Assembly (NCBI GenBank): GCA_017857595.1
Contig: JAFMCU010000007.1
Coordinates: forward strand, 1-64,000
Reading direction: 5' to 3'
DNA: 64,000 nt
From: Thermoprotei archaeon
GTDB lineage: Archaea > Thermoproteota > Thermoprotei > Gearchaeales > Gearchaeaceae
Shown: one piece after another, positions 19,007-39,557 of the stretch
Layout of the letters: every line of letters begins with the position of its first letter
Numbering within the stretch: the stretch's first letter is position 1
The notes under the pieces: generated by a model
Database searches by the model: none
What the model was told of the DNA's origin: nothing
The model's input: the letters and a program-made list of their open reading frames with translations, nothing else
Translations under genes and position numbers: made by a program

Positions 19007-19307
19007 ATTTAAATATAAAACCTGAATTTTTATTTTTGTCGCTGATGAATGTTACAAAATTTTTATCTATCGAACACTGCTAGTTATTTGTTAAATAAAA
19101 AATTTATCTTTTTTCACTGCTCTAAGATACCAGATTTTTCTCATAATTCGTATTTACTTCTCGCTTTTGCAAAATAGTTAAGAGGTTATGGGCACCCGGC
19201 CAGTCAATGAGATTAATATATCGCTATATTAATTCAACGATATAAGATTTGGCTTTTTTATATGATATTTTAATACATAGACTACTATTAGTTACTAAGT
19301 ATAGTGT
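19007..19307. other. Intergenic region with GC patch and perfect inverted repeat
   Basis: No gene of useful length is seen here. A GC-rich patch, GGGCACCCGGCC at about 19190-19201, stands out in the A/T background. Immediately after it is a perfect 9-base inverted repeat, ATTAATATA at 19212-19220 and TATATTAAT at 19225-19233, around a TCGC loop. It precedes the ATPase pseudogene, so it may be a regulatory or structural relic of that gene or an old insertion point. No target-site duplication was found. Confidence 0.4.
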
Positions 19308-20408
19308 ATGTTATTTGATCCAGAACCTAAAACAAAAATTGAAGATTTGTACAATTTTAGAGATGAACTAAAAAAATTAATAGATTTAATTCCTAAAAAC
19401 TAGAATGTTAATCGTTAGTGGTCTGAGAAGAACTGGTAAGACGTCGTTAATTAAAATAGCTTTGAATAACTTAAGTTTACCTTAATATTTATATTGACAC
19501 TCGTTTAACGTTTTATACTAGTTAATGATATTGTTAAGGTAATTACTAAAGCTATTGATGATTTTTTAAAAAGACATGCTAGTATTTGGCATGTAATAAC
19601 GAATCATTTTAAAAAATGTTATAGGAATTTCATTTAGAACGGAGATTTACTCCATTTCTTTTAATTTTAGAGGTAAAGAGAAATTAGATGTTTATGATCT
19701 TTTTAGAAAAAATTAACAATACAGGAGAAGAAATAGCACAACAAATTTTAGTCATGGTAGACGAAGCACAGGAATTAAGGAAAGCTGCTTGGGCGAGATT
19801 TGATCGACTTCTTGCTTATACATATGATAATCTAAAGAGAATTAATCTATTATTATCTGGGTCACAATTCGGATTATTAATAAATTTTCTTGGCGTAGAA
19901 AATCCACAATCGTATTTATTTGGTAGACCTTATATAGAAATTAAAACAAGTAGATTAAGCGACGCTGAATCTTTTGAATTCCTAGAGTTGGGATTTAGGG
20001 AATTAAATATGAATATAGATAGAAATATCTTATATAATGCAATAGATAAATTAGATGGTATTATAGGCTGGTTAACTTTTTTTGGTTATACATATTCAAT
20101 GGGTGCTACAAAAAGTATTGAAGAAATTATGCGAAAGGCAATAATTTTAGCCATAGAAGAACTGAATAATTTTTTATCTGAATCTAGAAGCGCTCATTAT
20201 AAAAGCATTCTTAAATTGCTGAGTGAAAGAGAGTTAAGCTGGTCCGAATTAAAAGGCGCTTTTGAAAAGACTTGATGGTAAAGTTATAGCTGATTCAACT
20301 TTTTATGCATTATTAGATAGACTTATATCCTATTCTTTAGTAGAAAAGAGATAAAATAAATATAGAATTATAGACCCTATTTATAAAATAGCTTCAAAAG
20401 AAATTTAA
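19308..20408 (+). pseudogene. Archaeal AAA ATPase (PF01637-like), heavily disrupted
   Basis: A remnant of an archaea-specific ATPase. The first 31 codons (MLFDPEPKTKIEDLY onward) end at a TAG (19401). In another frame the sequence continues RMLIVSGLRRTGKTSLIK, with the Walker A motif, and then runs into stops. In a third frame come YIDTRLTFYT and, further on, FNFRGKEKLDVYDLF. The longest open part, 19688-20275, is a 195-residue fragment with the Walker B-type VMVDEAQEL, LLSGSQFGLL and later family elements. The C-terminal piece (LDGKVIADSTFYALLDRL) lies beyond another shift. At least four frame or stop lesions show it is not one protein. It is probably a relic of the mobile or expanded family common in Sulfolobales. 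Confidence 0.8.
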
Positions 20409-29773: not shown

Positions 29774-32065
29774 ATGAAGGTAGAAAGATATAACTTATTC
29801 CTAGATTTTGAAGATAATAATTTTAAGGGAAAAGAGATTATTGAAGTTGAAACTGAAGGAAATATAGAGCTCGACAGCCTTGTTAAAATTAACAGTATTT
29901 ATACAGGAGATAATTCGCCTTTGAAATATGAAGTTATAAATGATAAAGTTCTAATTTATACTGGAAATTTTAAAGGTAAAATATTCATTGAATTTGAAGG
30001 GAAAGTCAGTACAAATTCACTTGTAGGTATATACAGATCTAAAGATATTATAACAACCCAATTTGAACCAAATTTTGCAAATAGGTTGTTTCCTTGTGTT
30101 GACAATCCTGAATACAAAGCAAAATTTTCTTTAAAAGTGAGCGTTAATCGAGGATTACAAGTTATTTCAAATATGCCTACAGAAAAGATTGAGGAAAAAA
30201 ATGGTAAGTTGATTTATCATTTTAAAGAAACTCCTCCAATGTCAACATATTTGCTTTTTCTAGGCATTGGAGAATTTGAAGAGATTCAAAAAGATAAAGT
30301 AATAGTTGCAACAACAAAAGGTAAGATTTATAAAGCTCGCTTTGCTTTAGAATCAGCGTTGAAGATACTAAAATATTATGAAAATTATTTTAACATGCCT
30401 TATGAACTCCCCAAATTACATTTGATAGCTGTACCAGATACGTCAGTTGGAGCTATGGAAAATTGGGGCGCAATAACTTTTAGAGAATCTTCTTTGTTAG
30501 TTGGTGAAACTTCTAGTTTAGAAAATAGAAAAGATGTCTTACTTACAATTGCTCACGAAATAGCCCATCAATGGTTTGGTAATCTTGTAACATTGAAATG
30601 GTGGGATGATCTGTGGTTAAATGAAAGTTTTGCTACGTTTTTGGAACTAAAATGCAATTCAAAATTATTTCCAGCGTTGAATAAACTCGGTGACTTCATA
30701 AATGAGTATACTTATGCTTCAATGTTCGAAGATTCTCTTACTACAACGCATAAAATAAAAGCAGAAATAAAGACTCCTGTAGAAATTAATGAAGCTTTTG
30801 ACCAAATTAGTTATGGAAAAGGTGCAAGTATTTTAAGAATGATTGAAGCTTATATTGGAGAGGATAATTTTCGAAATGGTATAGTTAATTATTTAAATAA
30901 ATATAGATATTCTAATGCTACTGCAAAGGATTTCTTTGCTTCTTTAAATGCAGATATACTAGAAGATTGGATTTCTAAACCAAGCTATCCTGTAATTTTT
31001 GTTAAAGTTGAAGGGAATAAAATAATTCTAAAGCAAAAAAGATTTGCTTTGTTGCATAATGTAGAGGATTTAACTTATAAAGTGCCTATAACAATTGAGG
31101 TTAATAATAAACTGATAACTAAATTATTAGAAAATAAAGAAGATATTATAGTTTTTGATGAAGAGGTTAAAAAACTAAAATTAAATTTAAACAGAACAGG
31201 TTTTTACAGAGTTCATTATAATGACTTGAATTATGTTGCTTATTTAAATGATATTGAAATAGCAGGCTTGATCAATGATTATTATAATTTTTATATTGCT
31301 GGCATTGTTAGCTTGCAAGAGTTCATTTCCTTAATTAATAAGTACAAAAATTATAAAGGATTGAATACTTCAGAGATGATATCTTCAATTCTAAGCTACC
31401 TTTATAAAATCAATCCACTAAAGTATAAGCAAATAGCAGAAGATTATATTAGAGCTCAATTAATCATTTGGAAAAATTACTCAAACGAAGAAGAGCGTTC
31501 TTTATATTATAGGCTTATGAGAAGACTTTCATTCATCGACGAAAATTTTTCATTGGCTCTTTCAGAGTTGTTTCCTTATTACGACCAAATAGAATCAGAA
31601 CTGAAGAGCGTAGCTGTTATTTCATATGCTACAGTCACTTCTAATGTTAAAACATTAATTGAAAAATACAAATATTATTCATTCGATGAGGATAAAGAAA
31701 TATTCTTAAACGGTATATCGGCAATTAGGGATCCTGTATCTCTCAAAGAAATATTCATGTCATTAGATACATTCAAATATCAACACCTCATATCATTGAT
31801 AATTTGGCTATCAAACAATCCTTACATAAGGAAAGAATACTATTCTATTTTCTTATCACACTTCAAAGAATTCAAAGATTTTGCAATTAATATCACAGGT
31901 GGAATATGGGGGTTAGGAATGCTTATAAGACGAATTTTTCCCATGCTGAGTTTGATAAATAAGAATGAAATTCTAGATTTATTAAAAGAAATAGAAGATA
32001 AAGATTTAAAGAGGAGCATAGATTATGCAAAAGAAATAATTCAAATATTAGAAAATTTGTCCTAA
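29774..32065 (+). CDS. M1 family aminopeptidase
   Basis: A 763-residue zinc aminopeptidase. The substrate-binding GAMEN motif (residues 226-230, VGAMENWGAITF) and the zinc site HEIAHQ plus NESFA (His261, Glu262, His265, Glu284) are both intact. Length and layout match tricorn-interacting/leukotriene-type archaeal aminopeptidases: an N-terminal beta domain, the catalytic domain to about 400 and a helical C-terminal domain. It removes N-terminal residues from oligopeptides, probably downstream of the proteasome in the cytoplasm. It converges with the broken tmcA, 7 bases apart. Confidence 0.95.
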   Translation: MKVERYNLFLDFEDNNFKGKEIIEVETEGNIELDSLVKINSIYTGDNSPLKYEVINDKVLIYTGNFKGKIFIEFEGKVSTNSLVGIYRSKDIITTQFEPNFANRLFPCVDNPEYKAKFSLKVSVNRGLQVISNMPTEKIEEKNGKLIYHFKETPPMSTYLLFLGIGEFEEIQKDKVIVATTKGKIYKARFALESALKILKYYENYFNMPYELPKLHLIAVPDTSVGAMENWGAITFRESSLLVGETSSLENRKDVLLTIAHEIAHQWFGNLVTLKWWDDLWLNESFATFLELKCNSKLFPALNKLGDFINEYTYASMFEDSLTTTHKIKAEIKTPVEINEAFDQISYGKGASILRMIEAYIGEDNFRNGIVNYLNKYRYSNATAKDFFASLNADILEDWISKPSYPVIFVKVEGNKIILKQKRFALLHNVEDLTYKVPITIEVNNKLITKLLENKEDIIVFDEEVKKLKLNLNRTGFYRVHYNDLNYVAYLNDIEIAGLINDYYNFYIAGIVSLQEFISLINKYKNYKGLNTSEMISSILSYLYKINPLKYKQIAEDYIRAQLIIWKNYSNEEERSLYYRLMRRLSFIDENFSLALSELFPYYDQIESELKSVAVISYATVTSNVKTLIEKYKYYSFDEDKEIFLNGISAIRDPVSLKEIFMSLDTFKYQHLISLIIWLSNNPYIRKEYYSIFLSHFKEFKDFAINITGGIWGLGMLIRRIFPMLSLINKNEILDLLKEIEDKDLKRSIDYAKEIIQILENLS

Positions 32066-32072
32066 ATAATCC

Positions 32073-33101
32073 TCAAGCATAGTAATCGTATAATTTTTTA
32101 GATAAAATCTTCATTAATTCTATAGCTTCATTTATTTTCATCTTTAAGATTTTTGCAGCATTCTCCCATGGTCTACCTTGCAACACTTTCATAATTAATA
32201 GTCTTTCTTCTTTTTCACTCATTTTAATTCTTTCATCTACTGTTGACATAAAGTGAGCTTTTACTAGTGATTTAATTGAATCGCAAGCTGATTCATATAA
32301 TAATAAACCATTCAAATAGCTTTCGATTCGTGGTCTTTGAGAACCTGAAAATTTTACATCTGTTTTATATTTGCCAAAAGTTTTATTCAACAAAATCCAA
32401 GCAATTTCACCACTAATGCTATAATATGCATCATGTAGGCTTTCAATAAAGCGTAGCCTAAATTCTCTATTTATTTCTTCTACGAATTTTTCTGATTTGT
32501 AACTTAGAGGTTTTATTACAGAAACACTGAACTCTCCTGAAACAGGGTTTCTTCTAGGTCCTAGCAAAATAGGTATATATCCATTTTTAATTACCCAAAA
32601 TCTAAGTAATTCAGCTGTTGCACCAAAACTAGAACCTATCCAATCTAATTTATTTGATTCTTCTTCTATTTTTTTCAATAAGAAAGACCCAATGCCTCTG
32701 TTCCAAAGTTTAGGATGAACAGCTATACGAAATATTCTAGTTCCTTTAAGCTTAGCAAATCCTTTAATATTAGGATAGTATCTTAAAGAAGTAGTTGGTA
32801 TTAAATTGCCTTTTATTTTTTCTATATCACTTAATTCATCCAATTTTACTTCTTCTAGACCTCCTTCGTAGCACATGTGTAGTGCAGCTATAACATTATC
32901 ATTGTATAACAATGCTCTTATGTAGTGCTTTGGCGAATCTGCAAGTAAAGCTATATAATCGGGTCTGTTTCTATAATGAGTTAAAACGTACAAACCAACA
33001 ATTTGTCTTAGTATATGTTCTTGTTCAAAAAAGAGATTTTCCTCTTCCACGGTTAGCTTTGATAACCATCGAAGCATAATTTTTTTCAACAAACTATTCA
33101 A
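32073..33101 (-). CDS. TmcA C-terminal half (GNAT plus tRNA-binding)
   Basis: A 342-residue open frame beginning at a TTG. The EHILRQIVGLYVLTHYRNRP block opens the GNAT domain, RIAVHPKLWNRGIGSFLLK is the acetyl-CoA loop, IGSSFGATAELLRFWVIKNG and PRRNPVSGEFSVSVIKPLS are TmcA signatures, and a C-terminal tRNA-binding region follows. The domain looks intact, with no stops over a kilobase, so decay is recent or the piece is still used. As translated, the first 20 or so residues are junk from the deletion junction. Without the ATPase domain it may be inactive. Confidence 0.7.
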   Translation of the reverse strand: MNSLLKKIMLRWLSKLTVEEENLFFEQEHILRQIVGLYVLTHYRNRPDYIALLADSPKHYIRALLYNDNVIAALHMCYEGGLEEVKLDELSDIEKIKGNLIPTTSLRYYPNIKGFAKLKGTRIFRIAVHPKLWNRGIGSFLLKKIEEESNKLDWIGSSFGATAELLRFWVIKNGYIPILLGPRRNPVSGEFSVSVIKPLSYKSEKFVEEINREFRLRFIESLHDAYYSISGEIAWILLNKTFGKYKTDVKFSGSQRPRIESYLNGLLLYESACDSIKSLVKAHFMSTVDERIKMSEKEERLLIMKVLQGRPWENAAKILKMKINEAIELMKILSKKLYDYYA

Positions 33102-33750
33102 ACGCTTTTATCACTTTTATTTGATCGTTTGTTAAACATAGGCTGTATATTTCCTTAGGATATTTTTCTCCTATTTTTTCATTGACAGACGCTTGTAGAA
33201 TCTCTTTCTCTATATTTCCTTTAGTAAATTTCTTAGAATCAATATATATTATGTTAACATGATTTTGCAGTTTCAATAATAGTCTTTTTTCAAAGATTTT
33301 CAACACTTCTCCATCTTTAATTGATTCATGAAATTTTGTATTCCAATTGTTTATGTTATCTATCGCTGGTCCAACAAAAAGTATTAATCCACCCCCTTTT
33401 ACGATTTCAATTAAGACTCCTAAATCATTTGGTCTAAGTTGTCTGGTAGCATCTAAGATCAATGCATCATAAGTTGAACCTAGTAGCTTATTTGTTTCTG
33501 AGTAAGGATAACTTATATAATTGACTCCATTCAATTGCTCTATCAACTTTAAGTAAATTGGATCATTTATTTCATTGTACATAGTTACTAAATTAAAGGA
33601 GTTTTTTAAAGAAGAGTAAAAATCAACAATCTTTCTTATAGAAAAGTTATCCAATAAATTATCTTCGATATAGATTAAAAGCCTATATCTTGAATTAACA
33701 ATCTCTTTTATGTAATTCAATATTACTTCATATTTTTCTTCAGTTAACAT
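33094..33750 (-). CDS. TmcA N-terminal domain (DUF1726-like)
   Basis: A 218-residue open frame with the N-terminal TmcA region. LLGSTYDALILDATRQLRPNDLGVL and GGGLILFVGPAIDNINNW match the domain that precedes the helicase, and it ends YSLCLTNDQIKVIKAFE before the TAG. TNDQ is the usual lead-in to the helicase Walker A. The start ATG is ordinary and 85 bases from ndk's ATG, in a divergent arrangement. It is probably an inactive fragment. Confidence 0.65.
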   Translation of the reverse strand: MLTEEKYEVILNYIKEIVNSRYRLLIYIEDNLLDNFSIRKIVDFYSSLKNSFNLVTMYNEINDPIYLKLIEQLNGVNYISYPYSETNKLLGSTYDALILDATRQLRPNDLGVLIEIVKGGGLILFVGPAIDNINNWNTKFHESIKDGEVLKIFEKRLLLKLQNHVNIIYIDSKKFTKGNIEKEILQASVNEKIGEKYPKEIYSLCLTNDQIKVIKAFE

Positions 33751-33835: not shown

Positions 33836-34417
33836 ATGGAAAGAACATTTGTTCTGATAAAGCCTGACGCAGTAAAAAGAGGTTTAATGGGTGAAATAAT
33901 CTCAAGATTTGAGAAAACAGGATTAAAGATAGTTGCTTTAAAAATGCTAGTTCCGACAAAAGAACAAGCAATGCAATTCTATCCTTCAGATACAGATTGG
34001 TTAGTTACAGTAGCCAATAAATCTTTATCTGTTTATAAACAACTTGGCTTAGATCCAAAAAAGGATTTTGGAACTGAAGACCCTGTGGAAATTGGTAAAA
34101 TAATAAAGGGATGGTTAGCTGAATTTTTAGCTTCAGGGCCTTGTGTTGCTATTGTAATAGAAGGTAATAGATCTATTGAGGTTGTAAGAAAGATTGTAGG
34201 CGCAACTAGACCTTATGAAGCTTCGCCTGGAACAATACGTGGAGATTTTTCAACAGACAGCCCTGAGCTAGCAAATATACTTAAGAGACCATTAAGGAAT
34301 TTGGTACATGCATCTGATAGCAAGGAAAATGCAGAAAAAGAAATCAAATTCTGGTTTAAAGATAATGAAATCATAGAATATAAAAGATCAGATGAAAACA
34401 TAATCTATGGCTTATAG
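33836..34417 (+). CDS. ndk: Nucleoside diphosphate kinase
   Basis: A 193-residue NDK that passes the terminal phosphate from ATP to other NDPs through a phosphohistidine. TFVLIKPDAVKRGLMGEII is the family start and NLVHASDS contains the active His158. TRPYEASPGTIRGDF supplies the nucleotide-binding arginine. It is longer than the usual 140-150 residues. The extra lies in the middle (about SDTDWLVTVANKSLSVYKQLG and the following stretch), a feature of some crenarchaeal NDKs. An in-frame GTG four codons upstream is less likely. It is divergent from broken tmcA. Confidence 0.95.
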   Translation: MERTFVLIKPDAVKRGLMGEIISRFEKTGLKIVALKMLVPTKEQAMQFYPSDTDWLVTVANKSLSVYKQLGLDPKKDFGTEDPVEIGKIIKGWLAEFLASGPCVAIVIEGNRSIEVVRKIVGATRPYEASPGTIRGDFSTDSPELANILKRPLRNLVHASDSKENAEKEIKFWFKDNEIIEYKRSDENIIYGL

Positions 34418-38667: not shown

Positions 38668-39557
38668 ATGGTAGTTTCTCGCGTAAGAACATTCATTCCA
38701 GGTCTTGATGAGATATTGTATGGTGGAATACCTGAAAGAAACATAGTACTGCTTTCTGGGGGTCCTGGGACAGGCAAATCCATAGCTGCAAAGCAATTTT
38801 TGTACAATGGAATGATAAGAGAAGAAGGAGGTGTTTTTGTAGCGTTAGAGGAACATCCTGTATCCGTAAGAAGAAGCTTCAGACATTTTGGCTGGGATAT
38901 ATCTAAATTTAAAAAGAAGGTAAGTTTGCAATCGTGGATGCGTTTACAGGTGGCATTGGAACAGCTGCACAAAGAGAAAAATATGTCGTGATACAAATCG
39001 ATGATGTACACGAGCTTGCAGATGTTTTAAGACAAGCAATAAAAGATACAAATGCGAATAGAGTTGCAATTGATTCTTTAAGTACACTTTATTTAACGAA
39101 GCCTGCTTTTGCTAGAAGTATTGTGATGACGTTGAAAAGAATAATATCTGGTCTTGGTTCAACTGCTTTTTTTGTAAGTCAAGTATCTGTTGGAGAAAGG
39201 GGTTTCGGAGGACCCGGTGTAGAACATGCTGTGGATGGAATAATTAGAATGGATCTAGATGAAGTTGAAGGTAAAATGTGCAGATCAATTATAGTTTGGA
39301 AAATGAGAGATACTAAAATATCCATGGTAAGACATCCAATGGACATCAAAGATGATGGAATATATGTGGAATGGGATAAATATCTAAAAATCGCACCAAA
39401 CTTTGTTAAAATTGAATTACTAAATAAAGAATTTATAGATGAAATGAAAAAGGCTATGGAAGAGGCGAGAATTAAAGCCTTTCAACAAAAAGAAATTAAA
39501 AAGGAAGAAGAAACATTGATGATTAAATATGTCAGTACCTTTAAAACCTTTGGGTAG
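38668..39557 (+). CDS. KaiC-like RecA-fold ATPase, single frameshift in the middle
   Basis: Two overlapping frames make one KaiC-domain protein. Frame 1 (from 38668) gives [17 protein letters not shown], Walker A GGPGTGKS (residues 31-38), ALEEHP and [11 protein letters not shown]. The right continuation ([27 protein letters not shown] with a Walker B-like segment, [21 protein letters not shown]) is in another frame. One base added to the run of five A at about 38911-38915 would give [16 protein letters not shown] and an intact 296-residue protein. Left as is, frame 1 stops at 38989. Archaeal KaiC-like ATPases are common in Sulfolobales and linked to recombination or regulation. A DNA-binding regulator follows. 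Confidence 0.75.

Follow-up and report, generated by a model that had tools for sequence, protein, structure and literature searches.

TmcA is the tRNA/rRNA cytidine acetyltransferase that makes ac4C34 in elongator tRNA-Met. In T. kodakarensis, tmcA is one of the thermotolerance genes: the tRNA of a tmcA::Tn mutant is devoid of ac4C, and the mutant, cultivated at 85 °C, showed thermosensitivity at 93 °C (PMC6393311). Growth of this mutant indicates that a thermophile benefits from TmcA but can do without it, and that its loss is tolerable below extreme temperatures. In hyperthermophilic archaea the amount of ac4C increases with temperature, as described for growth of P. furiosus (PMC9095486). 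In the yeast homologues (Kre33 and S. pombe Nat10), acetylation is weakened or lost upon point mutation of the Walker A motif (PMC6770127). The genome considered here (G000) is a draft of 60 contigs and 1.47 Mb, approximately 90% complete. Judged from the DNA, its tmcA is very probably a recent pseudogene, inactivated by a stop codon and a short-repeat deletion within a wider erosion of tmcA in the order.

In the window (the whole stretch of DNA analysed, 64,000 nucleotides of the source contig), one tmcA gene is present in two halves on the minus strand, from 33750 to 32073. The following features are located at the locus:

29774 to 32065, plus strand: M1-type aminopeptidase, synteny anchor converging on tmcA, 59% identical to that of the congener, position and orientation kept
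32073 to 33050, minus strand: remaining C-terminal half of tmcA, with the post-helicase motif, the GNAT acetyltransferase domain and a putative tRNA-binding region
33034 to 33050, minus strand: deletion junction, the 17-nt GTGGAAGAGGAAAATCT, where 587 bp of helicase sequence are missing compared to the congener
33034 to 33051, minus strand: fossil Walker A, CGTGGAAGAGGAAAATCT, encoding RGRGKS in phase with the N-terminal ORF, past its stop
33094 to 33096, minus strand: premature TAG stop, TGG in the congener (FEWFNTK versus FE*FVEK, DNA alignment)
33094 to 33750, minus strand: ORF of the TmcA N-terminal domain, 218 aa, starting with ATG and ending at the premature TAG
33839 to 34417, plus strand: nucleoside diphosphate kinase (NDK), synteny anchor, 87% identical to that of the congener, where it also adjoins tmcA

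Both halves scored at 1e-29 or below against the TmcA family in Pfam profile searches, so that a chance match is not an issue. The N-terminal ORF matches PF08351 (TmcA_N, E 1.7e-29, 33097-33750) as well as the NCBI model NF041296 for TmcA (E 1.1e-19), and is 50% identical to the intact TmcA of the congener. The C-terminal ORF contains the GNAT acetyltransferase module (PF13718, E 4.2e-33) and matches NF041296 with an E-value of 8.1e-59; its match to PF13725 (E 4.7e-5) reaches 23.6 bits at a cut-off of 27, a value below which the intact congener also falls (24.1 bits). Of the 746 positions of the NCBI model, the two halves cover 52-209 and 420-714. The helicase/ATPase domain, which includes Walker A and Walker B, is represented by the Walker A alone, and this motif lies beyond the stop. 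Past the TAG, the frame of the N-terminal ORF reads FVEKNYASMVIKANRGRGKSLF and closes at a TGA (33027-33025); the RGRGKS in this stretch aligns with NRGRGKS/DRGRGKS of intact relatives. The next family element, VEEENLFFEQEHILRQIVGLYVLTHYRN, lies in a different frame, which is open up to 33101 and has its first ATG at 33077-33075. The initial annotation had described a same-frame peptide with the TmcA Walker A behind the TAG, followed by a family element in another frame, and both descriptions hold, the quoted peptide being exact.

The congener (G001) is the single-cell genome crenarchaeote SCGC AAA261-N23, which we take to be one of the NAG1 single cells. Its tmcA is intact (L032:5504-7777, 757 aa), with PF08351, PF05127, PF13718 and PF13725 in this order, and is located between NDK and the aminopeptidase at the same place and in the same orientations as in the window. 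Compared with this orthologue, the window lacks a stretch that begins directly behind the Walker A codons and ends directly ahead of the post-helicase element. Its length of 587 bp corresponds to 588 bp between homologous codons minus the 1-nt frame offset, and since 587 is not a multiple of three (remainder 2), the frame changes. Thus, instead of one uninterrupted frame, the gene has a TAG at 33096-33094 and a frameshifting deletion. The alignment bears out the earlier view of a lost helicase core and of at least two lesions (a stop, TGG to TAG, and an out-of-frame deletion) between two otherwise long open halves; neither half contains any further stop or frameshift. The coding frames flanking the broken gene are intact.

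At the junction, the same 17 nt can be translated in two ways: one frame gives RGRGKS (Walker A), the other VEEENL (post-helicase element). The DNA on its left side is similar to the Walker A arm of the congener but not to the downstream arm, the DNA on its right side is similar to the post-helicase arm but not to the Walker A arm, and the junction itself is similar to both. When NRGRGKS was encoded with random synonymous codons in a simulation, only 0.06% of the encodings gave the downstream element in the other frame. Rather than being merely adjacent, the remnant of Walker A and the downstream element share the same nucleotides, which points to a short-direct-repeat deletion as the simplest reading. 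The gene has suffered one nonsense change (TGG to TAG) and a deletion of approximately 587 bp, which begins directly behind Walker A, ends directly ahead of the GNAT module, removes the helicase and shifts the frame. We infer that the deletion arose when two copies of a direct repeat of about 15-17 nt slipped or recombined; RGRGKS would have been encoded by one copy and, in the shifted frame, (V)EEENL by the other, with a single copy kept at the junction. Considering the effect of Walker A mutations in the yeast homologues, neither half should work, and neither is expected to supply ATP-driven acetyltransferase activity. The cell should consequently be devoid of ac4C, including ac4C34 of elongator tRNA-Met, unless the unassembled part of the genome (approximately 10%) holds another enzyme.

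Conserved columns and dN/dS of the halves are similar to those of intact genes, with the reservation that synonymous sites are saturated. Of 64 columns that do not vary across 20 relatives, the intact congener keeps 52 and the C-terminal half 50; three departures of this half fall at columns conserved in the congener (D to Y, V to I and Y to F). With dS saturated in both cases, dN/dS was 0.08 for the C-terminal half, compared to 0.04-0.12 for the neighbouring genes, and 0.24 for the N-terminal half, somewhat above the neighbours. Since both halves are free of other interruptions and equal the intact congener in conservation, the break is probably recent relative to the split from the congener. 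The lack of clear decay beyond the two lesions fits a recent break and also allows residual function; halves that are still in use are the less likely alternative.

Among 36 other genomes of the class, each at least 94% complete, 33 encode tmcA. The three genomes without the gene are G002 (same family, 95% complete), G003 (same order, 97% complete) and G041. The chance that the two nearest genomes sit among three random absences is 0.5%. The loss of tmcA, described beforehand as unusual in a thermophile, is indeed unusual for the class but not for the order, both high-quality relatives of which lack the gene. In G002, NDK and the aminopeptidase are 73 bp apart with no tmcA between them. The aminopeptidase beside NDK (L083, G002:C2, 3027-6026) is inverted relative to its counterparts in G000 and G001, which implies more than a simple excision: the locus was rearranged at or after the loss of tmcA. 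G041 is a 97% complete genome of family f7, the other members of which have tmcA, and is possibly another independent loss. Two relatives of one genus in another family encode a second, very divergent TmcA-like protein (open frame of 687-692 aa) besides the normal one (G057:C6:9530-10018 and G059:C205:21391-21873).

The PriS tree groups the order as ((G000,G002),(G003,G004)) with support of 97/91, and in the TmcA tree G000, G001 and G004 are found on one side of a branch supported by 99/98. The latter grouping makes vertical inheritance plausible, though long branches meet there. If inheritance was vertical, the retention of tmcA in G001 and G004 implies at least three independent losses. The ratio of TmcA to PriS distances amounts to 1.33 in the focal genus and to 1.17 in G004, compared to a mean of 0.74 for the others, with PriS as the single control gene measured in G000 and TmcA in G001. 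Accordingly scaled to this primase, tmcA of the order appears to have evolved about 1.8 times faster than expected before the losses. The loss of tmcA thus seems to be part of a wider erosion in this thermophilic order, with faster evolution and then absence in the two best relatives.

Two further disrupted reading frames are located in the window. A gene for a KaiC-domain ATPase (TIGR03877/PF06745; 38668-39554, plus strand) is split by one frameshift at an A-run near 38913-38935, with profile positions 1-83 in one frame and 88-238 in the other; a second pseudogene, a sequencing error and slippage are the three candidates for this break. Around 19300-20350 (plus strand), an archaeal ATPase-like sequence is spread over several frames, with a GLRRTGKTSL Walker A followed at some distance by VDEAQELRKAAW. 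The sequence resembles a decayed gene, and its part at 19688-20272 has no Pfam or NCBIfam match.

The broken tmcA might be an artefact of assembly or strain mixture, with the true gene intact and both deletion and stop produced by a mis-join or a variant consensus. The draft state of the genome speaks for this, and the single A-run frameshift in the KaiC-domain gene shows that some sequence errors are possible. However, an assembler collapse needs a repeat of about k-mer length, and the shared stretch is only about 17 nt long and present a single time in the window; the TAG, located outside the junction, is a lesion of its own, so that a collapse is a poor fit. Together with the intact flanking frames and the absence of tmcA in the two nearest high-quality genomes, this disfavours an assembly fault as the cause, and we regard such an artefact as improbable. 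A functional split, in which the C-terminal ORF is made from ATG 33077 or TTG 33101 as a helicase-free RNA acetyltransferase, perhaps with an N-terminal partner, would account for two long open pieces that are free of further frameshifts and nearly match the intact congener in the number of conserved residues, and for the low dN/dS of the C-terminal half (at saturated dS). Against it stand the reduced or abolished acetylation in the Kre33 and S. pombe Nat10 Walker A mutants (PMC6770127), the start of the C-terminal half inside the reshuffled junction and, by eye, the absence of a GGTG-type ribosome site before the ATG. Moreover, nearly all relatives of the class with the gene have one open frame of at least 650 aa, and the two shorter frames (334 and 610 aa), both from fragmented drafts, are no clear precedent for a split. 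This explanation is the least probable of those weighed here.

Alternatively, tmcA may be dead and its loss masked by an unrelated enzyme, or by a gene in the unsequenced part of the genome, that supplies ac4C. The incomplete assembly leaves room for such a gene, and the elongator tRNA-Met is kept, its mature sequence being one nucleotide off that of the TmcA-bearing congener. Profile searches with PF05127, PF08351 and PF13718, covering the search for another TmcA/Nat10-like gene that had been proposed earlier, retrieved no second TmcA from the approximately 90% complete draft, nor from any genome of the order. The absence of a second tmcA in G000 is strongly indicated, though not final because of this completeness. 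The sole PF05127 hit in G000 (20.5 bits, C50), considered as a displaced helicase segment, belongs to an ORF resembling a THEP1-type NTPase. TmcAL as a replacement was discarded as well, as G000-G003 have no PF05636 match; M. jannaschii, used as control genome, has a PF05636 match and no PF13718 match. Overall, masking of the loss is very improbable, and a recent pseudogene is still the preferred reading. Loss or alteration of the substrate tRNA was ruled out: an intron-containing elongator tRNA-Met is encoded at C51:33094-33196, and initiator tRNA and a CAU tRNA-Ile are also present, as far as the three CAU tRNAs can be told apart by sequence features. A box C/D guide for Cm34 of tRNA-Met was sought with the strict pattern TATGAGTNCTGA, by which mismatched guides are missed; the four sites found in three genomes are chance-like, none of them being properly spaced from a C box. 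In a sample of window genes, AUA is the isoleucine codon used most (53.5 per thousand codons), hence misreading of AUA by unacetylated tRNA-Met would carry a real cost unless something else prevents it.

G000 encodes two reverse gyrase-like proteins scoring above the curated cut-off. Both are full-length within the 1.47-Mb genome (G000:C26:4982-8620 and G000:C4:1023-4445). Great Boiling Spring, the source of the NAG1 single cells, is at approximately 85 °C where it emerges, and the sampling temperature was approximately 74-79 °C (PMC5671600). It is conceivable, though doubtful, that this whole thermophilic order of Thermoproteota is becoming ac4C-free, its TmcA having first evolved under a changed or relaxed constraint and then been lost at least three times independently because C34 of elongator tRNA-Met is protected by other means, e.g. 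guide-RNA 2'-O-methylation, despite the usage of AUA. The single event is ordinary gene decay; that it recurs within a thermophilic order is the more interesting aspect, and one open to testing. A lineage with reverse gyrase that repeatedly loses tmcA offers a comparison set of intact, freshly broken and vanished genes, in which one could address whether ac4C serves AUG versus AUA decoding or the heat stability of RNA, as well as what replaces it.

The halves share the domain order of TmcA, archaeal COG1444 and NAT10-Kre33 (TmcA_N, then GNAT and the putative tRNA-binding region), as well as the synteny of the intact congener, and the Walker A is still legible. They differ from these proteins in the deleted PF05127 domain, the premature TAG and the split frames, and are predicted to be inactive. 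Deletions by slippage between short direct repeats occur in bacterial and archaeal pseudogenes. The tmcA locus has the same single junction copy of about 17 nt, with similarity switching from arm to arm, and does not differ in kind; its one unusual feature is a repeat that yields a family motif whichever of the two frames is read. TmcAL of the Bacillus type (PF05636), by which bacteria make ac4C34 along an unrelated route, would be the obvious functional replacement and was not found in G000-G003. The closest experimental counterpart is the T. kodakarensis tmcA::Tn mutant (PMC6393311), likewise a thermophilic archaeon without TmcA and lacking ac4C in its tRNA; there, the gene was interrupted by a laboratory insertion, while here a natural loss appears to recur in relatives.
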